This document shows, one piece after another, positions 44,895 through 55,056 of a stretch of 64,000 bases of DNA (position 1 is the first letter of the stretch; the number at the start of each line of letters is the position of its first letter). Under the pieces are notes generated by a model. The model worked only from the letters and a program-made list of their open reading frames with translations, was not told the DNA's origin and did not search any database. The stretch is from Polyangiaceae bacterium (GTDB lineage Bacteria > Myxococcota_A > Polyangia > Polyangiales > Polyangiaceae). The stretch lies in contig CANJMI010000004.1 of assembly GCA_947475525.1 (NCBI GenBank), forward strand, positions 124,001 to 188,000, read 5' to 3'. Both the position numbers and the translations under genes were made by a program.

Positions 44895-45122
44895 GTGTCG
44901 CGATATTTAGGCTCGTTCGGAGTGCTGGTCTTGTGGGCTTTCGCTAGCTCCGCGACCGCTTCTGGAGTGAGCACCTCGACCGGCGTGGTCGGTTGCAAGG
45001 TCTACCACGACGGCGAGATGGTGAAGCCGCCGCCGATGACGCGGATCGAGCCGCGCCTTGGCCGCGACGAGCCGTGCCACTGCGGCAGCGCAAAAAACAT
45101 CAAGAAGTCCTGCGGGGCCTGA
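44895..45122 (+). CDS. small SEC-C-type metal-binding protein
   Basis: 75 residues from GTG 44895. The C-terminus GRDEPCHCGSAKNIKKSCGA matches the SEC-C zinc motif (GRNDPCPCGSGKKYKKC), but the third ligand position holds Ser and only the next residue is Cys. The N-terminal ~24 residues look like a signal peptide, unusual for SEC-C proteins, so either the start is further inside (ATG 45020 or 45038) or the product is exported. It is followed after 13 bases by the membrane-protein operon. Confidence 0.55.
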   Translation: MSRYLGSFGVLVLWAFASSATASGVSTSTGVVGCKVYHDGEMVKPPPMTRIEPRLGRDEPCHCGSAKNIKKSCGA

Positions 45123-45135
45123 GCGAAGAGTTGCC

Positions 45136-45798
45136 GTGTTCGAGTCGCTCTACGGTAGCCCGTGGCACCATCCGTACTTCTTTTGGGCTTTCGGTGGCCC
45201 CTTGCTCGGGCTTTTCGCTTGGCGAGCGCTCACGAGCGAAGCTCCCCGCGCACGCGCGCTCGCGGCGTTGTTGGCAGCGTTTCAGCTAGGGATCCTCGCG
45301 GATGCTTGGCTGAATGCGCCGAAACTCTCGCCGCTCTCCGGCGGGACTGCCGAGGCGGTGGCGATCGCTTTCGTGATCCTCGGAGATGCGCGCTTCTTTC
45401 TGTTGCTCGAGCGCTTCGGCCGCGGGCAAACGCGCCTTCGAGCGAGCGTTTACGCCCTCGGATGGAGCCTGCTCGTGCCGGTCGGTTCTTTGCTGGCGAA
45501 ATCATTCTCGTCGAATGGGCGAGTGCATTATCTGACCTACGAGCTGGCCTTCGCGGCTCTCGTCATCGGCCTCCGCACTCAGCTCGTTCCGAGGCTTCCG
45601 CCAGGGCCTGGTCGCACCTTTGCGATCCGTCTCTGCGGTTACGAGCTGACGCAATACCTGCTCTGGGCCACGGCTGACGTGTGGATCCTCGCCGGTCGCG
45701 ATGAGGGCTACCTGCTTCGACTGTTACCGAACGCGCTCTATTACGTCGGCTTCGTCCCGTTCGCCTGGTGGGCCGCACCGAAGGAGCTCAAAACGTGA
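45136..45798 (+). CDS. polytopic membrane protein of unknown function
   Basis: 220 residues from GTG 45136, with GAAGAG upstream. About six hydrophobic spans are evident (FFWAFGGPLLGLFAW, ALAALLAAFQLGILADAW, AVAIAFVILGDARFFLLLE, VYALGWSLLVPVGSLLA, LTYELAFAALVIGL, LLPNALYYVGFVPFAWW). The stop overlaps the GTG of the cytochrome gene (GTGA). Tight coupling to a cytochrome c gene suggests a respiratory or redox-linked role, but no family is recognised. Confidence 0.75.
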   Translation: MFESLYGSPWHHPYFFWAFGGPLLGLFAWRALTSEAPRARALAALLAAFQLGILADAWLNAPKLSPLSGGTAEAVAIAFVILGDARFFLLLERFGRGQTRLRASVYALGWSLLVPVGSLLAKSFSSNGRVHYLTYELAFAALVIGLRTQLVPRLPPGPGRTFAIRLCGYELTQYLLWATADVWILAGRDEGYLLRLLPNALYYVGFVPFAWWAAPKELKT

Positions 45799-46757
45799 AG
45801 CTCTGGCAAGGGCTGCTGTGCTCGGTCAGCATCCTCGCCGGATGCCGCAACGCTCCGCCGAGGCCCACGTGTTCGACCGGAACTCAGGCGCAATCCCCTA
45901 CCCCAGCGTCGAGCGGACTCGCCACGCCGGAGCTTACGGACGATGTGCCGTTGGCTGACGACAACGCGGGGCTTTCGTTCGTCGCCGATGGAAAAACACT
46001 GCGAACGCTGACGAAAGCTGTCATCCGACGAGCGTTCCCGGTCGAGACCTTTACGGTCTCCGATGCCTACTACGATGGTCGCCCAAAAACGTGGCGCGCC
46101 GTCTCGCTCCGGCCCTTGCTCGAGCGCGGCTTTGAAGGCCGCACAGTGGACCTCGACGCCCAACAATTCATTCTTCGCTGCGTCGATGGGTACACAGTTC
46201 CACTCGATGGCAAGCGGCTGCTCGAAGCCGGTGGCTACCTCGCGCTCGCCGACGCGACCGTCTCGGAATGGGATCCCATCGGCGTAAAGAAGGACAACCC
46301 GGGACCCTACTTCGTCGTATGGAAACACCCGGAGCAGCAGGGCCTAGAGTTGCACCCGCGTCCGTATCAGCTCGCGGCGATCGAGCTCGCGGCCTTCGAG
46401 ACGACCTTCCCGCATGTCGCGCCGACGGGTGAGCCCACAGACTCGGCGGCCCAACGCGGCTTCGGGATCTTCAAGGAGCAATGCATTCGCTGCCACGCCG
46501 TGAATCAAGAGGGCGGGCGCGTGGGTCCTGAGCTCAACGTGCCGCAGAGCATTGTGGAATATCGGACCGATGCGCAATTGAAAGCCTTCATCAAAAACCC
46601 GCGCACGTTTCGCTATAGTTTGATGCCCGCTCACCCGGACTTGAGAGACACGGACCTCGCCGAATTGCTCGCGTATTTTCATGCGATGAAGAGCCGAAAA
46701 CACGACCCCAACGCCGTGAAGCCGGCGCGAACTCGAAACGCCGAGAAGAGCCTGTGA
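45795..46757 (+). CDS. cytochrome c lipoprotein with molybdopterin-domain-like N-terminal region
   Basis: GTG 45795 overlaps the preceding stop. Lipobox ILAGC. Residues ~60-205 (VSLRPLLERGFEGRTVDLDAQ, then GYTVPL) resemble the small substrate-side fold of sulfite-oxidase-type molybdopterin domains but lack the cofactor-binding Cys. Residues ~220-300 are a mono-haem cytochrome c: CIRCHAVNQEGG, with MPAH as likely axial Met and DTDLAELLAYFHAM as the C-terminal helix. It would carry electrons in the periplasm. The stop overlaps the next gene. Confidence 0.8.
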   Translation: MKLWQGLLCSVSILAGCRNAPPRPTCSTGTQAQSPTPASSGLATPELTDDVPLADDNAGLSFVADGKTLRTLTKAVIRRAFPVETFTVSDAYYDGRPKTWRAVSLRPLLERGFEGRTVDLDAQQFILRCVDGYTVPLDGKRLLEAGGYLALADATVSEWDPIGVKKDNPGPYFVVWKHPEQQGLELHPRPYQLAAIELAAFETTFPHVAPTGEPTDSAAQRGFGIFKEQCIRCHAVNQEGGRVGPELNVPQSIVEYRTDAQLKAFIKNPRTFRYSLMPAHPDLRDTDLAELLAYFHAMKSRKHDPNAVKPARTRNAEKSL

Positions 46758-47815
46758 TCCGGGGTCCGAGCCCCATCGAGAGCGGCTCGGCTTTGCTGGC
46801 GGAACGAATCGCTCGCGCGCCGGACGAACTTCAAGAGTTGCTGGAAACCGAAGCCCCGAGCGGCAGTCTTCATGGACCGGGGCCCGTTATCACCACCGGC
46901 GCTGGCGCGTCCGAAGGCCCGGCGCGCGTGCTCGCGGCGACCCTTCGCGCAGGCGGCACGCCCGCTCGCTTTGAGCCGCTGTCGGCATTCGCCAGCGAGC
47001 GCGAACGCACGAGGATGGTGGCCACGAACGCGGAGCTGGTGCTCGTTTCGCAAAGTTTGTCGCCCAACGCGCGACTGGCACTGCGGCGCGCGAGCCTGTT
47101 TCGCGCGTTCACGGTCGTGACGAGTGTGTCGCCGGATGCACATGCCCCGCCGCTTTCTGCGCCCGCCCTCCTCGCAACCGCCGCGAACGCGGGAGCCCGC
47201 ATCGTCACTCACGGACCGAAAGAAGAGCCCGGCTTGCTCGTGCGCGTGCTCGGGCCGGTCAGCGCCACACTCGCGGTACTCCGCCTCGCAGGAGCGACGC
47301 CGCCAGGCGAGTTGGTGGAGCGGTACCGTCAAAGCTACGAGCTTGGAAAAACTCGCAGCGAAGCGCTCGGCCTCTCCTGTGGCGAGCACCCGGGCGGCGG
47401 CGCGCAGACGATCGCGTTCCTCACCGCGGGCAGCGGGGCAAGCTTCGCGCACGGGCATCGCTGGAAGCTCCTTGAAGCCTGTGCCGCAGCCGACCCTCCG
47501 GTCTGGGATGTCCTGCAATTCGCCCACGGGCCGTTTCAGCAAATCTACGAACGACCCATGCTGCTGTTGGGTCTCGAGCGCCTTGGGGACGAGCCATTAT
47601 TTGAGCGTTTTTACTCACTCCTCGTTCCAGAGCGTCATCGGTTCCTGCGCGTCCAGGCGACGTTGCCGGAGCCCTGGAGTTTTTTCGAGCACGATGCGCA
47701 GCTGAACGCCCTTGCCTTAACACTGCTCGCGTTGAGGCCGCGTGACCTCATGAGTTGGCCCGGGCAAGGCGCCGATGGACCGCTCTACGACTTCACGGGT
47801 GACGACGACACGTGA
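46754..47815 (+). CDS. SIS-domain-like sugar isomerase fold protein
   Basis: GTG 46754 overlaps the cytochrome stop. Residues ~40-135 (VITTGAGASEGPARVLAATL, ELVLVSQSLSPNARLALRRA, FTVVTSV) follow the SIS phosphosugar-binding pattern with a Gly-rich start and Ser-rich loop. A second alpha/beta half (about 200-330) includes GSGASFAHGHRW. Substrate unknown. A SIS-like protein coupled to a membrane protein and a cytochrome is an odd combination. There is no signal peptide, so it acts in the cytoplasm. Confidence 0.65.
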   Translation: MIRGPSPIESGSALLAERIARAPDELQELLETEAPSGSLHGPGPVITTGAGASEGPARVLAATLRAGGTPARFEPLSAFASERERTRMVATNAELVLVSQSLSPNARLALRRASLFRAFTVVTSVSPDAHAPPLSAPALLATAANAGARIVTHGPKEEPGLLVRVLGPVSATLAVLRLAGATPPGELVERYRQSYELGKTRSEALGLSCGEHPGGGAQTIAFLTAGSGASFAHGHRWKLLEACAAADPPVWDVLQFAHGPFQQIYERPMLLLGLERLGDEPLFERFYSLLVPERHRFLRVQATLPEPWSFFEHDAQLNALALTLLALRPRDLMSWPGQGADGPLYDFTGDDDT

Positions 47816-47864
47816 TGCCGACGCCCGGCTCGCCGTCCGAGTGGGCGTCCGAGTGGGAGTGGCC

Positions 47865-48059
47865 TCACCACGTCGGTCGAGCGACGATGAACTCGATGAT
47901 CGCGTGGACGATCGCGCTGGTGTCCTTCCCGTGCTCGAGGCGGCAGACGAAGGGCCTGTCCACCTTCAGCATATCGTAAGGGGCCTGATGCAAATAACTG
48001 AAGGACGAGTAGCTCGTCCCAAAATCATCGAGGCTCACGCGCACGCCACTTTATAGCTC
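47865..48059 (-). pseudogene. EAL-domain (c-di-GMP phosphodiesterase) remnant
   Basis: On the minus strand from 48059 the frame reads EL, stop, SGVRVSLDDFGTSYSSFSYL, then DMLKVDRPFV and AIVHAIIEFI, before a TGA at 47865. This matches the conserved middle of EAL domains (LDDFGTGYSS, KIDRSF). The domain lacks its N-terminal EAL motif and C-terminal third, and has an internal TAA at 48051-48053. It is a clear relic with no start codon and about 60 residues of homology. Confidence 0.85.
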
Positions 48060-48239
48060 CTCCGTGCTGTGTCGAAAGTTGCCAGCACCGCGAGCTGGCT
48101 GAGTGCCCTGCGTCTCTTCTTGCGGGTGGGTCAGATGGGAGGCCCTCCAGGCGATTCCCGTTTCAAGGATAGCCTGTCTGTTCTACGCACGCTCCGGAGC
48201 CGTCTGCTTTCGATCGGTCTGAACCCACCCGAGATTCCC

Positions 48240-48944
48240 ATGAGCCCGTCAAAGAACGACGTCTCCGTCCGCCCGCGTCGAGCCAAGCGGCTTCCCATCC
48301 GAATGGCGCTGGCGCGCCCGAGGCTTCTCGCTACCGTGCTCATCGGCATCCTCGTCGTTCTTTTTTTGCCACGAGAACTCGCGCCGCAGCCCGTCACCCG
48401 GGCCATCGTTGGCTGGAACGTGACGGCCTGTCTCTATTGCGTGTTGGCGCTTAAGATGATGTTCGGATCCTCGCACGAGCGCATGCGCACGCGTGCCTTG
48501 GAGCAGGAGGAAGGCAACACCGTCGTGCTGCTCCTCGTGGTCACCGCGTCGCTCATGTGCGTCGCGGCCAGCGCGTCCGAGTTGGTTCTGGTCAAAAGTC
48601 TGACGGGGTTACTGCGCGACGCCCACCTGGCACTCGTCGCGTTGACGATTGTGTCGTCGTGGGTCTTCACTCAAACCATGTTCGCCTTGCATTACGCGCA
48701 TGACTACTATTTGAACTCGGCGCGTGGGGACCACGGTGGCTTGGACTTTCCCGGGGGACTGCCGCCTGACTATGGAGACTTTCTGTATTTCGCTTGCGTC
48801 ATCGGAACCTCGGGACAAACCGCGGACGTGAGCTTTTCCAGCCGCCGAATGCGCAGGACCGGCACCGTGCACTGCGTGCTGGCGTTCTTCTTCAACACCA
48901 CCCTCCTTGCATTGATGATCAACATTGCGTCAGGGCTGCTGTGA
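48240..48944 (+). CDS. DUF1345 integral membrane protein
   Basis: 234 residues from ATG 48240 (MSPSKNDVSVRPR). Five membrane spans and the family blocks VFTQTMFALHYAHDYY, GLDFPGG, PDYGDFLYFACVIGTSGQTADV and FFFNTTLLALMIN are present. The family is of unknown function. The upstream frame to 48069 has no supporting start and overlaps the EAL-relic flank, so I excluded it. Confidence 0.85.
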   Translation: MSPSKNDVSVRPRRAKRLPIRMALARPRLLATVLIGILVVLFLPRELAPQPVTRAIVGWNVTACLYCVLALKMMFGSSHERMRTRALEQEEGNTVVLLLVVTASLMCVAASASELVLVKSLTGLLRDAHLALVALTIVSSWVFTQTMFALHYAHDYYLNSARGDHGGLDFPGGLPPDYGDFLYFACVIGTSGQTADVSFSSRRMRRTGTVHCVLAFFFNTTLLALMINIASGLL

Positions 48945-49171
48945 GCGGCGGGCTGTCTGAAATTTTTGTTGCTGTTACATAAAATGCCAAAGGTGAGCTT
49001 CCCCCCGTCGCGCGCGCGCCCGCCCCCGCTTCGCAGCTGCCTTGCCGCTCGATTTGAGCGCCGCTGACCGAGTGAAATCAACAACCTGCCACCGCAGGAC
49101 CGCGCGTACCGGCGGCGATCAATAAACAAACCGTTGACAACCACTAAACACAAGACTCAGGGTCCGCCGCC

Positions 49172-50101
49172 ATGTCAGCGAACGTCATCGCTTCGCGCTC
49201 GTATGCTTGTCAGGAGTGCGGGGCCGAGCTGCGGCTGCCGGAGGGGCGCCGCAGCGTCGCTTGCCTTTATTGCAAGTGTCCGACGGTGATCGAGCGCCCG
49301 GGCTCGGCGGACGCGCCGGCGCCGGCGTTGGTGCTGCCGTTCGTGGTGCCCGAGGCGGCCGCGCGCGCGGCGGTGGCGGCGTGGAAGAAGAAATGGCGCT
49401 GGTTTCACGCCTCGCTCGCCGGCGCCGCCATCGATGATATCCAGGGAATTTACTTGCCGGCGTACCTCTACAGTGCGGCGCTGACCTCGCACTACCGCTG
49501 TGAGATCGGCGAGCACTACCAGGAGACCGAGGAGTACGAGACGACCGAGAATGGCAAGCGAGTCACCAAGACGCGGACCGTCACCAAGACCGAGTGGCGC
49601 TCGCTGCAAGGCGAGCACGTGGGCTATGTCGCCGACGTGATGGTGACCGCCTCGCGCGGTTTGCCCAATGGCGAGCTCGGCGCCATCGAGCCGTTCGACA
49701 TGCGGCTGCTCCGCCGTTATCAGGCGGCCCTGGTATCGGGCTGGGCGAGCGAAGATGCCAGCGTCGCGCCGGCCGACGGCGTGCAAGCCGCGCGCGCCGA
49801 AGCGGTGCGCATCGAGGCCGGGCGAATCGGCGCGTTCTTGCCCGGCGACAACAACCGTGGCCTCGAATTCCAAACCCACGTTGACCGCGAGAGCCTCGAT
49901 TTGGCGCTGGTGCCGATTTGGACATTGGCGATCCGGCCCGACCCAAAACAACCGGCGCAGCGCGTATTGTGCAACGGCCAGACCGCGCGAGTGTGGGGGG
50001 CCGAGCGCTGGTCGCCGCTGAAAATCGCGGCTTTCATCGCGATTCTGTTCGCCATCGGTGAGGGCGTCTGGCTTGCGCTTCGAGCAGGAGGGGGCGGGTG
50101 A
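49172..50101 (+). CDS. zinc-ribbon membrane protein (first of pair)
   Basis: 309 residues. N-terminal zinc ribbon CQECGAELRLPEG...CLYCKCP, then a soluble alpha/beta domain (about 55-270) with LPFVVPEAAARAAVAAWKKKW, YLPAYLYSA, VTASRGLPNGEL and LVPIWTLAIR. A C-terminal membrane helix (285-302) follows. The protein is anchored by its C-terminus with the ribbon in the cytoplasm. Leu codons are mostly CTG, unlike the CTC-rich neighbours. A paralogue follows with a four-base overlap. Function unknown; the ribbon resembles those often annotated as helicase or primosome-like. Confidence 0.8.
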   Translation: MSANVIASRSYACQECGAELRLPEGRRSVACLYCKCPTVIERPGSADAPAPALVLPFVVPEAAARAAVAAWKKKWRWFHASLAGAAIDDIQGIYLPAYLYSAALTSHYRCEIGEHYQETEEYETTENGKRVTKTRTVTKTEWRSLQGEHVGYVADVMVTASRGLPNGELGAIEPFDMRLLRRYQAALVSGWASEDASVAPADGVQAARAEAVRIEAGRIGAFLPGDNNRGLEFQTHVDRESLDLALVPIWTLAIRPDPKQPAQRVLCNGQTARVWGAERWSPLKIAAFIAILFAIGEGVWLALRAGGGG

Positions 50102-51054
50102 GCGTCGTCGGTAAGTGCCACCGCTGCGCGACCGACCTCGAAGACGGCGATCTGCGCTGCTCGATCTGCGGCACCATCGCGCCGGCCCTGGACCGTGTTG
50201 TTGGCGAAGTGCAGCGAATCGTCCGCTGCGACGAATGCGGCGCCGCCGTCGCGCACCGCGCCGAGGACGCCATGAGCCCGGCGTGCCGCTTTTGCCGCGC
50301 GCCGACCAAGATCGAGACGCCCCAAAATCCAATGGAAACCGCCGAGCTGATGCTGCCGTTCGTGATCAGCTCCGATCGCGCCGTCGTGGCGATGCGGCGG
50401 TTTCTCGGGTCATTGGGTTTTTTCCGACCGAGCGATTTGTCCAGGAGCGCCTCGGTCGACTCGGTGGCGGCGGTGTGGTTCGCCGCCTGGATCTTCGACG
50501 CTCGCGCCGACGTCACCTGGGCCGCCGACTCCGACCACGGCTCGGGCCGCTCCGACTGGGCCCCGCACGCCGGGCGGGTCAAATTCGATTGGCGCAACGT
50601 GGTCGTCAGCGCCTCGCGCGGCCTTGCCCGCGACGAAGTGCACAAATTGATACCGGCCTATGACCTGGGCCAGGCGGCGCCCATCGCCGGCGCGTCCGGA
50701 GGCCAGGTCGAGAGCTTCGACGTCGAGCGCAGCGCCGCGCGCCAGCACGTGCTCGACGCCATCCACACCATCGCCGCCGAGCAGCTCAAACAGCACCACA
50801 TCCCCGGGAGCCGCTTTCGCAAGGTCAACGTGTCAGCGCTGCTGGAGGGCCTCACCACCCGACGCTTCGCCCTGCCGGCCTACGTATTCGTCTACCGCTA
50901 CGAAGGCCGCCCCTATCGCGCCATTGTCCACGGACAAAATGACGCGGTCACATTCGGCACCGCGCCGCTCGCCTGGGGAAAAATTGTACTCACGGTGCTG
51001 GCCGTTCCCGCGGTGATCGCCGCCGTCATCGCCGCCATTGCGCTGACTCGTTGA
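50098..51054 (+). CDS. zinc-ribbon membrane protein (second of pair)
   Basis: 318 residues from GTG 50098 (GTGA overlap). Two zinc ribbons (CHRCATDLEDGDLRCSICG; CDECGAAVAH...CRFCRAP) precede the same domain as the upstream gene (LPFVISSDRAVVAMRRFLG, WFAAWIFDAR, VSASRGLARDEV, LPAYVFVYRYEGRPY). The C-terminal membrane helix IVLTVLAVPAVIAAVIAAIA closes it. The pair probably forms a hetero-oligomer. Leu codons are again CTG-rich. A hairpin terminator follows immediately. Confidence 0.8.
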   Translation: MSVVGKCHRCATDLEDGDLRCSICGTIAPALDRVVGEVQRIVRCDECGAAVAHRAEDAMSPACRFCRAPTKIETPQNPMETAELMLPFVISSDRAVVAMRRFLGSLGFFRPSDLSRSASVDSVAAVWFAAWIFDARADVTWAADSDHGSGRSDWAPHAGRVKFDWRNVVVSASRGLARDEVHKLIPAYDLGQAAPIAGASGGQVESFDVERSAARQHVLDAIHTIAAEQLKQHHIPGSRFRKVNVSALLEGLTTRRFALPAYVFVYRYEGRPYRAIVHGQNDAVTFGTAPLAWGKIVLTVLAVPAVIAAVIAAIALTR

Positions 51055-51079
51055 GAGGCTTCAGGTTGCCGGAAGCCTC
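51055..51079 (+). terminator. intrinsic terminator-like hairpin
   Basis: GAGGCTTC (51055-51062) pairs with GAAGCCTC (51072-51079) around a nine-base loop directly after the zinc-ribbon gene stop; the following TTGTCCTATTG is only moderately T-rich. Confidence 0.65.
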
Positions 51080-51298
51080 TTGTCCTATTGTCCAATCGGT
51101 TTTTTGGAAACTAGCGCTGTGGCCAATGATTCGCCGAGATGGACGATAGCGGTCTCATCCTCGATGGGGATAGCCGCTACAAGCGCCCTGTTCCACGCCG
51201 CGAAGAGTTGACATCATCGCCAGATCTCGGCGGATGCGCCCGGAAGAGCTTGGTTGGCGCCGTTTAACACCAAACCTGCGTGCACGTATCCTGTGTGA

Positions 51299-51418
51299 AT
51301 GAACATCACCCTCGCCATTGACGAACAGCTTGCGGAACGGGCCCGAGCGGTGGCTGCCGGCGACTCGGGCGGCGAGCGCTTCCGGCGTGAAGACAGCTAT
51401 GCGGACAGGGTCAGATGA
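51299..51418 (+). pseudogene. VapB-type antitoxin remnant
   Basis: ATG 51299 opens a 39-codon frame that begins MNITLAIDEQLAERARAVAA and ends GDSGGERFRREDSYADRVR. The two ends match the start and end of longer antitoxins that precede PIN toxins, so an in-frame internal deletion is inferred. The TGA overlaps the ATG of the PIN relic (ATGA), as in intact vapBC operons. Confidence 0.7.
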
Positions 51419-51825
51419 GCGTCTTCTTAACCACCAACATCCTCCTGTAGGCGGACGACCTGGATGCGGGCGACAAGACACAAATTGCACGCGAGTTGAT
51501 CCATCGCTGCCTGCTGGACCGAAGCGGGGTGGTCTCAACTCAGATCCTCCAGGAATACGACGTCGACGCCCGCAAAAAGCCAAAGTTGGACGGTGCGTCG
51601 GTCCGCGCGCGCGTCGAAATCTACAGTGGGTTTGAGGTCGTGACGATCACGCCGACCCTGATCCTGGCGGCCGTAGACCTGCACCGGCTCGACAGAGTCT
51701 CGTTCTGTGACGCCGTCGTCATCCGGGCGGCAGAGCAAGCCGGGTGCGAGCGCCTGCACTCAGAGGGTCTGCAGGATGGGCGCAAGTTCGGCTCGACGCG
51801 GGTGGTGAATCCGTTTTCAGGGTAG
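51415..51825 (+). pseudogene. VapC-type PIN-domain ribonuclease toxin, inactivated
   Basis: From ATG 51415 the frame reads MSVFLTTNILL then TAG at codon 12. The PIN fold continues in frame to 51825 (VVSTQILQEYDVDA, FEVVTITPTLILAAVDLHRL, VSFCDAVVIRAAEQAGCERLHSEGLQ, RVVNPF). The first catalytic Asp of FLDTN is Thr, and the stop replaces the usual Tyr codon. Catalytic and coding capacity are both lost. An internal TTG/ATG cannot rescue the active site. Confidence 0.88.
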
Positions 51826-51942
51826 CCGTTCACCCAGGTCAACATGTACCCGCGGCCCCGCCTGCGCCGAACGTCGATTCTTCGCTGATTGGCGGACATT
51901 GGCGCATGTGCGGGAAGTCCTGGGCGTGGCAGAGTTCGCCGC

Positions 51943-52728: not shown

Positions 52729-52771
52729 TTTTTTGACCGGCCGCCGGACAGTCCACGCCTAGCCGCTCATC

Positions 52772-53962
52772 CTACGTACGTGCTCCGTTCACGTTTGGAG
52801 CCAGCAATTCGAGTGGCTCGGCCATGCCACGAAGACTGTGGTTTCCACATACGCGGAACGAACGCTCGGTGGTTTCCGCGAAACGACGGCTCACGAGGGT
52901 GGACTCATCGAGTGTGCGACACAGGCTCGCGATCCGCGCAGCGGCGTTCACGGCCTCGCCGATCACGGTGAAATCGAGCCGACCGGGCGCACCGACGTTC
53001 CCATAAATGACCTCGCCCGTGTGGAGCCCCACCCCACTCTGCATGGGGATCCGGGACCGTTGGGATTGCGCCACCTCAGCAAGGTGAAGCTCCGCCGCCG
53101 CATCCAAAGCACAATCGACAGCGCGACGCCAATCATCGCCTTTCACGGGGAAAATCGCCAAGAGCGCGTCCCCCATGAACTTGAGCACCTCGCCCTCGTT
53201 GCGATGCACGCAATCCACGGCGAGTTCAAACCAGGCGTCGAGCGCGCTCACGATCGCCTCATCCCCATAGCGACGCGTGAGGGTCGTGAAGCTCCGTACG
53301 TCGGAAAACCAGATCGCCGCTCGAATGCGCTCGCTCTCACCGCGATGAATGCGACCAGAGAGGACACGCGGCCCAGTTCGAGGACCGAGATACGTCTCCA
53401 CGATCGTGCGCGACAACCGACGGCTCTCGAACGCCTCGACCACCAGCGACACCGTCGGACCGACGCTCGAGAGGACGACGACCTGCGCGTCCGTCCACCC
53501 CTCCGCGAGGCTCGTCCAGATGGAGAGGACGTGAACGTCGCCACTCGCTGTGCGGATCGGCAGAGCGAGGTAGTCGGTCGCCCCTAAGCGCGCGAATTCA
53601 TCGATGATGTCGAAGCGCCCCAAGCCCTCCCCGTGCCCCAAGCGGAGCCGCAACGGCGTGCTTCTCATCATGACGACCTGGAGCGGACTCTCGGCATGCT
53701 CGCGCGAGTCGAGGAAGCCCCATGGACGCTCGAGCTTGACGACAGCGCGCGACACGTTGCTCCAACCGAAAGCAATCCCGGCTAGCGCAGGATGCAACGT
53801 CAACACGGCTAGATTCACGCGCCCGGGAGCGAAACCATGGTCGACGAGCCAACTCGCGATCGTTTGGACGACCACGTCGAGCTCGAGCGTCGTCGACGCG
53901 ACTTGGACGATGCTCTCTAAAAGGTCGCTGCTCTCGTTTTCCGCTGAGTATTTTTTACTCAT
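52772..53962 (-). CDS. class III adenylate/guanylate cyclase
   Basis: 396 residues from ATG 53962, with GGAGAGGGG as ribosome-binding site. The N-terminal ~210 residues look like a GAF-type sensor with hydrophobic strands (TDYLALPIRTASGDVHVLSIW). The cyclase homology domain follows: FSDVRSFTTLTRRYGDE (metal-binding Asp), NEGEVLKFMGDALLAIFPV (second metal Asp) and AVNAAARI. Substrate-specifying residues fit adenylate more than guanylate, but this is uncertain. There is no membrane segment. Upstream is the 54.0-kb relic region. Confidence 0.88.
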   Translation of the reverse strand: MSKKYSAENESSDLLESIVQVASTTLELDVVVQTIASWLVDHGFAPGRVNLAVLTLHPALAGIAFGWSNVSRAVVKLERPWGFLDSREHAESPLQVVMMRSTPLRLRLGHGEGLGRFDIIDEFARLGATDYLALPIRTASGDVHVLSIWTSLAEGWTDAQVVVLSSVGPTVSLVVEAFESRRLSRTIVETYLGPRTGPRVLSGRIHRGESERIRAAIWFSDVRSFTTLTRRYGDEAIVSALDAWFELAVDCVHRNEGEVLKFMGDALLAIFPVKGDDWRRAVDCALDAAAELHLAEVAQSQRSRIPMQSGVGLHTGEVIYGNVGAPGRLDFTVIGEAVNAAARIASLCRTLDESTLVSRRFAETTERSFRVCGNHSLRGMAEPLELLAPNVNGART

Positions 53963-54015
53963 ATCCCCTCTCCAAAAAGAAGTTACTCGTGAACCAGCGT
54001 TGGAGCGCGGCATTC

Positions 54016-54080
54016 CGCACAAGGGCGTCCCGGCCCAGCCGAGCCGCCTCGCTGGGCAAAGCTGTGGTCGGCCGCGCGTT
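54016..54080 (+). pseudogene. fragment duplicated from the TPR end of the VIT/vWA gene
   Basis: Sixty-five bases match 60824-60888 with few mismatches. Translated in the frame of the parent, they read AQGRPGPAEPPRWAKLWSAAR against AQGRPGPDDPRRWAKLWSAAR. The frame carries on to a TAG near 54103 without further similarity. No start codon or complete domain is present, so it is a copied fragment, not a gene. Confidence 0.8.
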
Positions 54081-54106
54081 ATCGGACACCTTGGTCGAGG
54101 GGTAGT

Positions 54107-54354
54107 GTGATCGAGCGGATCGGACGTCGATTCCCTCGCGCGCCCGTGGCGAAGGCGACGAAGAGAGCGACCTCGACGTGCTGGTTTGTGTCCGCGACCT
54201 CACGCGTTCCGAGCGGCGCGAGGCGCTCGATGTGGTTTACGACCTCGAGCTCGCGCTCGGCGTTCGCATCGACCTTATCTTGCGAGATGCTGAGCCTGCC
54301 GCTCTCGGTGCGGCGCTCGCAAGCGAGATCCTGCGCGACGGAGTAGCCGTGTGA
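54107..54354 (+). pseudogene. MNT-type nucleotidyltransferase with frameshift (partner of HEPN)
   Basis: The 3' frame (ending TGA 54352-54354) reads SRARGEGDEESDLDVLV and VRIDLILRD, the catalytic GSRARGE...SDxD signature of minimal nucleotidyltransferases. The 5' part (GTG 54107, VIERIGRRF) is in another frame; the change comes at TTCCC just before TCGCGC, consistent with loss of one base at the Gly of FGSRARG. The TGA overlaps the HEPN ATG. If translation is not frameshifted, the antitoxin half is dead while the toxin half is intact. Confidence 0.75.
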
Positions 54355-54749
54355 TGGACGTCGACCGCACCGCAACCCACGACGCGCTCGCGCTCGCTCG
54401 CGACACCCTTGCGGCCGCCGAGACGCTCGCGAACGCCGGGTTTGCGAGACACGCTGTCGGGCGCTCCTACTACGCCGTGTACCACGCCGCCTGCGCGCTC
54501 CTTGCGACGGTTGGACTGCGTGCACGGATCCACGAGGGGATGCGCTCGCTCGTGAACGAACATTTCGGCCGGACGGGCGTCCTCGCACACGAACACGCTC
54601 GCACGCTGCGGCAGCTCGCGGGTGACCGAAACGATGCGGACTACGACGCCGCGGCAACCTTCACGGACGAGGATGCTCGGCACGATCTCGAGCGCGCATG
54701 CGCTTTCGTCGACGCGGTCGCGAGCATCGTGTCTTCGCGTTCTGCGTGA
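54354..54749 (+). CDS. HEPN-domain protein
   Basis: 131 residues from ATG 54354. An all-helical HEPN domain of the UPF0332 type: GRSYYAVYHAACALLATVG, IHEGMRSLVNEHFGRTG, and DRNDADYD. In HEPN/MNT toxin-antitoxin pairs the HEPN part is the RNase-like toxin and the MNT partner AMPylates it. The gene seems intact while its MNT partner is frameshifted, which raises the question whether it is still toxic or has lost activity. I see no clear RX4-6H motif. Confidence 0.82.
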   Translation: MDVDRTATHDALALARDTLAAAETLANAGFARHAVGRSYYAVYHAACALLATVGLRARIHEGMRSLVNEHFGRTGVLAHEHARTLRQLAGDRNDADYDAAATFTDEDARHDLERACAFVDAVASIVSSRSA

Positions 54750-54847
54750 GAAGCGAGCTATTCGAACACGATAGCGCGCAAGCTTGAGTGAATTTGTGTG
54801 AGCCGGATTTGGCCCACACGCACGGGATTGCCGGACGGTTACGTCAT

Positions 54848-55056
54848 CGCGCTACGCTCGCGCCGGATGACGGACCGAATGCCCCGGGAAGTCTTCGTTC
54901 ACGTCCGATTTCATTCGTGCCCACGGAGGATCCGCCCGGGCGTTTCTGAACGCGAGTAGGCCCCCAGAGCCACGGCTCGCACGGGCCAACCAGCGCGTGC
55001 TCGAGCGCGATCTTCGACGCTCGACACGAAAGGAACTGGCGAAGGCTCCCCCGTGA
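54848..55056 (+). pseudogene. relic with copied start of the right-edge gene
   Basis: Bases 54848-54880 resemble 63826-63861 (about 33 of 36), including the start MTDRM against MTDLM; then similarity is lost. In another frame, 54889-55056 is an open stretch (KSSFTSDFIRAHGG, then RANQRVLERDLRRS and a TGA) with coding-like composition but no start or family. I read it as decayed coding DNA. The surrounding gap (54750-55195) otherwise holds only an inverted repeat GTGTG..CACAC near 54800 and the leader of the NtrC-type gene. Confidence 0.5.

Follow-up and report, generated by a model that had tools for sequence, protein, structure and literature searches.

Two overlapping genes at positions 49172 to 51054 of the window (the whole 64,000-nt stretch of DNA analyzed here) raise two questions: to which family do their products belong, and are they the mobile or recently acquired two-gene unit of unknown function that the original prediction proposed? 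Gene A (49172-50101) encodes a protein of 309 aa and gene B (50098-51054) a protein of 318 aa. Both lie on the + strand, and the GTG start of B and the stop of A share 4 nt (GTGA). These open reading frames score 536 bits with the A-type profile (for A) and 561 bits with the B-type profile (for B), each profile including the protein that it scores here.

Architecture and family of the two proteins

The overlap and the paralogy that had been predicted for the two genes are both borne out: a phmmer search with A as query retrieves B at an E-value of 4.6e-10, and the comparison of profile with profile gives an E-value of 2.2e-25. Zinc ribbons had been expected in each protein; four-cysteine ribbons are indeed present, their number being corrected to one in A and two in B. 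That of A (C13-C34, 49208-49273, + strand) has four cysteines, C13, C16, C31 and C34, that are invariant in 46 A-type rows. Those of B (C7-C24, 50116-50169, and C44-C66, 50227-50295, both on the + strand) have eight (C7, C10, C21, C24, C44, C47, C63 and C66) that are invariant in 45 B-type rows; the first of them matches Zn_Ribbon_1 with an E-value of 0.003, below the cut-off. The common domain with a (V)xASRGL motif was likewise found as announced: (i) VTASRGL in A (49643-49663, + strand), with V158 and A160 invariant and S161 and G163 present in at least 90% of the 46 A-type rows, and (ii) VSASRGL in B (50605-50625, + strand), with A172, G175 and L176 invariant in the 45 B-type rows. Hydropathy and models also agree with the announced C-terminal membrane helix, both in A (50024-50080, + strand; 19-mer hydropathy of 2.26 at residue 285, model helix 282-307) and in B (50983-51039, + strand; 2.90 at residue 296, model helix 293-317).

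Pfam and NCBIfam contain no family that scores above cut-off for A or for B. Judged by profile comparison, A and B belong to the YdjG-type zinc-ribbon membrane family, known from pspA-ydjGHI of B. subtilis. In hhalign comparisons with an alignment of five SPFH-linked relatives, A is aligned over 291 columns (E = 4.3e-57) and B over 306 columns (E = 8.7e-43), that is, near full length in both cases. A and B share with the YdjG type the four-cysteine ribbon or ribbons, a similarity of the central domain with an (N/H)GQ close to the membrane helix, and the C-terminal helix itself; B. subtilis YdjG, like A and B, combines N-terminal zinc ribbon(s), one common domain and a C-terminal membrane segment. 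This likeness to YdjG relies on an alignment led by a member from Enterococcus, and not on the B. subtilis sequence itself. However, B. subtilis YdjG is the product of one gene, whereas A and B are encoded by two adjacent divergent genes and A has a single ribbon. The family of the pair is recognizable, so that the "unknown function" of the original prediction stands in part: the role of the pair itself can only be proposed.

The SPFH-linked relatives were reached from plasmids: a tblastn search with a single-copy relative (P0001, 365 aa) retrieved 12 records. In all five records that were opened (Comamonas, Paracoccus, Vibrio, Tsukamurella and Enterococcus), an SPFH gene lies directly upstream of the YdjG-type gene. 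The Enterococcus record shows the order SPFH-ZnR-TPM, with Band_7_1 and TPM above the Pfam cut-offs, which corresponds to the same kinds of partners as ydjI and ydjH. According to tblastn and hhalign, these relatives, which are unnamed or annotated as "TFIIB-type zinc ribbon-containing protein", form one family with A and B; unlike the A-B pair, they are encoded by a single gene with SPFH directly upstream (five of the five records opened among the 12). It can also be observed that one Enterococcus gallinarum record (L107, NZ_CP116511.1), deposited as a plasmid of 484 kb, contains rplA, rplJ, rplL, dnaX and recR, and therefore may be chromosomal.

AlphaFold2 gave confident models of both proteins (mean pLDDT of 93.1 for A and 93.2 for B) from 46 A-type rows (A of the window and 45 of the 80 loci described below) and 45 B-type rows (B of the window and 44 of these loci). 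In both models, the ribbon part is followed by a helix, then by very long strands, another long helix and lastly the C-terminal helix. In PMC11237479, YdjG is described as two zinc ribbons, a YpeB-related NTF2-like domain and a transmembrane segment; with regard to such an NTF2-like fold, the matches of A and B to known folds are weak (best Foldseek E-values of 0.11 for A and 0.011 for B, neither significant). The best VIA Z scores are 3.4 and 4.5, and the search for a known fold with both programs gave no convincing match, which does not make the fold new. A search of the PDB by sequence with A alone returned no match, and the A-type and B-type profiles returned weak and short matches, mostly at the ribbons. 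Neither these PDB searches by sequence and profile nor the structure comparisons by Foldseek and VIA found a solved structure for the YdjG family.

Recurrence of the pair in three phyla

A one-genome-per-species collection was scanned with 13 A-type proteins; among the 104 relatives obtained, the best 80 were kept. A B-type gene lies next to the A-type gene, in the order A then B and on the same strand, in all of these 80 best loci of the 104, and the gap between the matched A and B domains ranges from 1 to 320 nt (median of 47; three of the B genes are cut short). According to the record titles, the 80 loci include Myxococcus xanthus, Archangium, Sorangium, Rhodopirellula, Stieleria and Acidobacteria; the pair thus recurs in the same order in Myxococcota, Planctomycetota and Acidobacteriota. 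One of the records, named Comamonas sp. KCTC 72670 (L196), groups with Myxococcus by synteny, sequence and tree, and may be misnamed or contaminated.

In a second search, the B-type profile was run against 377 genomes of Myxococcota, with five candidates scored per genome. At an E-value of 1e-8, it had matches in 83 genomes; 11 of these stand apart as a B-type set with E below 1e-80, and one of the 11 is G261, a genome of the same family as the source genome. Together with genomes G022 and G027, these 11 provide 13 Myxococcota loci, all 13 with an A-type gene directly upstream on the same strand. Four of these 13 loci had served to build the A and B profiles, and the sets of 80 and 13 overlap partly. 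A-type and B-type proteins are distinct subfamilies that are always encoded side by side at the loci examined. The "two-gene unit" of the original prediction is thereby strongly supported, by 80 of the 80 best loci and 13 of the 13 Myxococcota loci (overlapping sets), and the search for the pair in other phyla that had been recommended found it in Planctomycetota and Acidobacteriota besides Myxococcota. Since the same order recurs in three phyla, the pair looks like an old obligate association and not like a newly arrived oddity.

The distances between A proteins and those between B proteins are correlated (r = 0.87 for 81 pairs, with none of 200 permutations reaching such a value); this agrees with the pairing, although shared descent alone could produce it. 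The 81 pairs consist of 77 of the 80 loci (the three with a cut B gene being dropped), the window, L024, L140 and L146. Apart from the synteny expected within clades, no neighbor family is conserved beside the 80 pairs, except for a family judged by eye to be Ser/Thr-kinase-like, which is common to the flanks of 22 of them.

Myxococcota also harbor a second tandem class of YdjG-like genes (10 loci: L147 to L154, L156 and L157), which consists, like the A-B pair, of two neighboring paralogues. The first gene scores better with the A profile in 10 of these 10 loci and the second with the B profile in nine of 10. However, this class is more divergent than the A-B pair and has lower scores: 125-231 bits for the first gene (A profile) and 68-129 bits for the second (B profile), whereas all but one of the 13 A-B loci reach 344-562 and 379-565 bits, respectively. 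The exception, L146 from genome G190, is intermediate (180 and 276 bits). No SPFH gene adjoining this second class was detected with an HMM built from three sequences.

Judging by titles and the openings of abstracts, no description of the A-B pair was found among the literature records listed, and no word beginning with Myxococc or Planctomycet was encountered in the main text of PMC11237479. What is new is the obligate two-gene form; the YdjG family, little studied and related to stress, was already known.

Composition, neighborhood and origin of the locus

The pair had been considered foreign on the basis of leucine codons rich in CTG between flanks rich in CTC. As a reference, a simple gene caller of our own was run on 20 segments of this genome, each 20 kb long; it yielded 284 genes, of which 142 are size-matched to the pair. 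In the 284 genes, CTC accounts for 0.52 and CTG for 0.19 of leucine codons. The CTG/(CTG + CTC) ratio is 0.63 for A and 0.59 for B, at or above those of all 142 size-matched genes, and the codons of the pair differ for Leu (p = 2e-4), Ala (p = 3e-4) and Thr (p = 0.006), all these values being uncorrected. The leucine usage is therefore atypical, as claimed, but the claim about the flanks fails on the left, where the adjacent DUF1345 gene (48069-48944) is also CTG-rich (CTG 0.35 versus CTC 0.26). Furthermore, the codon and k-mer comparison that had been recommended gave a divided answer: leucine, alanine and 4-mers (96th percentile of 420 windows) are unusual, whereas the whole-gene codon likelihood is ordinary, with A and B both fitting well (84th percentile). 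Codon distance reaches the 79th percentile for A and the 93rd for B, and GC3 the 89th and 94th, respectively. Another 1.9-kb segment nearby (from about 53.2 kb) is also at the 96th percentile for 4-mers. The leucine bias is weakened as a sign of foreign origin because the overall codon fit is good and the neighboring DUF1345 gene shares the bias.

Two features lie directly downstream of the unit. The first is a copy of a dispersed repeat of about 95 bp (51166-51254, + strand), which has 13 matches in the genome, including itself and two short partial ones, and more copies in the congeneric sister genome G001. At some places, copies are separated by a few hundred to two thousand bases. This clustering suggested an integron cassette/attC reading, which was rejected: the two attC core motifs could not both be spotted by eye. 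Two copies folded on both strands did no better than shuffled sequences (z of 0.8, 0.3, -0.5 and -1.0), and the only Rfam match over 48900-51900 (E = 0.71) is below threshold. At one locus (L100), the repeat adjoins ORFs that look IS66-like by eye. The second feature is the broken vapBC of the original prediction, which was found again: a VapB-like remnant of 39 aa (51299-51418, + strand), recognized by eye and position only, is followed by a VapC-like PIN pseudogene (51415-51825, + strand), whose codon 12 (51448-51450) is a stop. The part at 51496-51825 matches PIN with an E-value of 1.6e-4, just under the Pfam cut-off, and has no NCBIfam match; the frame seems to have lost its usual N-terminal Asp.

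Among 59 genomes including the source genome (kin up to the order level), 16 have matches to A. The pair itself is present in four of the 37 family genomes sampled (G000, G022, G027 and G031), G261 being a fifth that came from the profile search, and a single-type match is present in seven of the 37. None of the four congeners has a match to A, two of these four genomes being less than 90% complete. The nearest relatives of A and B of the window display only 44-50% identity, and the pair has no supported sister in the tree (0.04 at the nearest node and 0.82 at the next one, which has 13 members). Sister genome G001 is 97-99% identical to the window at 45001-46489 and 52735-54889 and 90-97% identical around 47685-48050. 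A contig of G001 stops at position 49061 of the window, and another one departs from synteny at 52735. The absence of the pair from G001 is therefore only partly visible. The breaks of synteny around the pair indicate a rearranged spot, with which an insertion here or a loss in G001 fits equally. At the matching place of G001, the DUF1345 gene mostly lacks a counterpart and the DNA looks IS-like by eye.

A recent gain by this genome of a foreign unit, near a repeat and a toxin-antitoxin remnant, is thus plausible, at somewhat less than an even chance. The atypical Leu and Ala codons, the 4-mer distance, the lack of matches in four of four congeners, the presence in only four of 37 family genomes, the synteny with G001 broken around the pair and the repeat copy and broken vapBC directly downstream all point in this direction. 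However, the overall codon likelihood is ordinary, a nearby segment has the same 4-mer percentile, identity to the nearest relatives stops at about 50%, the pair lacks a supported sister in the tree, the contig of G001 ends at the border of the locus, and differential loss would explain the patchy presence just as well. No donor or carrier of the pair was seen. The claim that the unit is mobile did not find support in a partial test: A has no match among 50,697 phage records, and B matches seven plasmid records at 23-25% identity, all of them among the 12 retrieved with the single-type query, the two that were opened both being SPFH-linked.

Candidate role of the pair and its putative partners

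We consider that A and B make up a heteromeric YdjG-family complex in the inner membrane, each as a dedicated subunit; this complex is probably a scaffold acting in membrane stress, and we give this reading a probability of roughly 55%. Each protein would be anchored by a single helix at its extreme C terminus; because only a few residues follow this helix, we infer a cytoplasmic location for the zinc ribbons and the beta-rich domain. A single YdjG-type gene would have been duplicated and would have diverged into A, with one ribbon, and B, with two, which would now form one obligate unit separate from the SPFH-TPM operon. According to PMC8581546, YdjI and PspA of B. subtilis are no longer recruited to the membrane when ydjG or ydjH is deleted, such deletions lead to shape defects under alkali, and YdjG interacts with YdjH; the family is genomically linked to pspA according to PMC11237479. 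By analogy, an A-B scaffold under the membrane could recruit or organize membrane-stress proteins in the way YdjG does, together with YdjH, for YdjI and PspA. Its SPFH or PspA partners, if any, would be encoded elsewhere, and a link between them and the pair is, for these bacteria, put forward as a hypothesis. The adjacency, order and strand of A and B at the 80 best loci of the 104 and at the 13 Myxococcota loci support the scaffold, as does the alignment of both proteins over nearly their whole length with SPFH-linked YdjG-type relatives; since the pairing holds at every locus examined, a two-subunit complex is its direct prediction.

The surroundings of the pair weigh against the scaffold, as no SPFH gene and no conserved partner gene was found there. 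With an HMM built from three sequences, no SPFH match was detected next to the pair of the window or in the flanks of the 80 loci (up to 5 kb) and of 12 other loci (up to about 8 kb), many flanks being shorter. Unlike the pspA-ydjGHI operon, the pair also has no PspA or TPM match on its contig in the 13 pair-bearing genomes. At the level of genomes, SPFH (PF13421) is present in 12 of these 13 (G190 has none) compared to 270 of the 377 Myxococcota genomes, and PspA in all 15 genomes tested (the 13 and both pair-less congeners). Both are so common that their co-occurrence with the pair says little. TPM, the domain of the YdjH partner, is found in three of the 13 genomes and has no match in the source genome. 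The link to SPFH is loose in Myxococcota even for the single form because SPFH was not seen in the flanks of 10 of its 14 loci (two of the 14 being fragments at contig ends): it directly adjoins three (L026, L027 and L033), which come from the same order as the source genome, and lies 4 kb from one more (L028). A more specific version of the scaffold reading, in which the pair is a self-standing obligate two-subunit module that derives from an ancient YdjG duplication, is spread over at least three phyla and senses or organizes the inner membrane without SPFH-TPM, has in our opinion a chance only slightly below even.

The ribbons could instead indicate a membrane-located regulator that would use them to bind either RNA polymerase or nucleic acid, a reading that we regard as rather improbable. 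Relatives bear the database name "TFIIB-type zinc ribbon", two SPFH-linked ones match the TFIIB zinc-binding domain with E-values of 4e-7 (over the cut-off) and 1e-6 (just under it), and the ribbons are weakly similar to subunit P of RNA polymerase (E from 0.006 to 0.5). However, these matches span only about 30 residues, neither A nor B itself matches any family above cut-off, and zinc ribbons also mediate protein contacts. A regulatory role of the YdjG ribbon is suggested in PMC9239133, whereas in genomes the family is linked to SPFH, TPM and, according to PMC11237479, pspA.

A phenotype is available for the YdjG family in one organism, and the strictly paired form found in the genetically tractable Myxococcus xanthus would offer a clean test of function without SPFH, TPM or PspA at the locus.

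Finally, the pair could stand in for the single YdjG-type gene and serve the same SPFH protein from afar. In the source genome (L061, 6190-8599), SPFH directly adjoins an unnamed gene, with no YdjG-type gene there; in G026 (L026, 6934-10663), a YdjG-type gene lies between SPFH and a gene 48% identical to this SPFH neighbor of the source genome. This suggests that the single form was lost in the source genome or gained in G026. Such a replacement would also agree with the lack of a single-type gene in the four pair-bearing family genomes and in G261, one further weak match in G022 covering only the zinc ribbon of a differently built ORF. However, we hold the replacement to be unlikely: four congeners have SPFH but neither form, and the two forms are not mutually exclusive, as they coexist in other genomes such as G223, which belongs to the same order.
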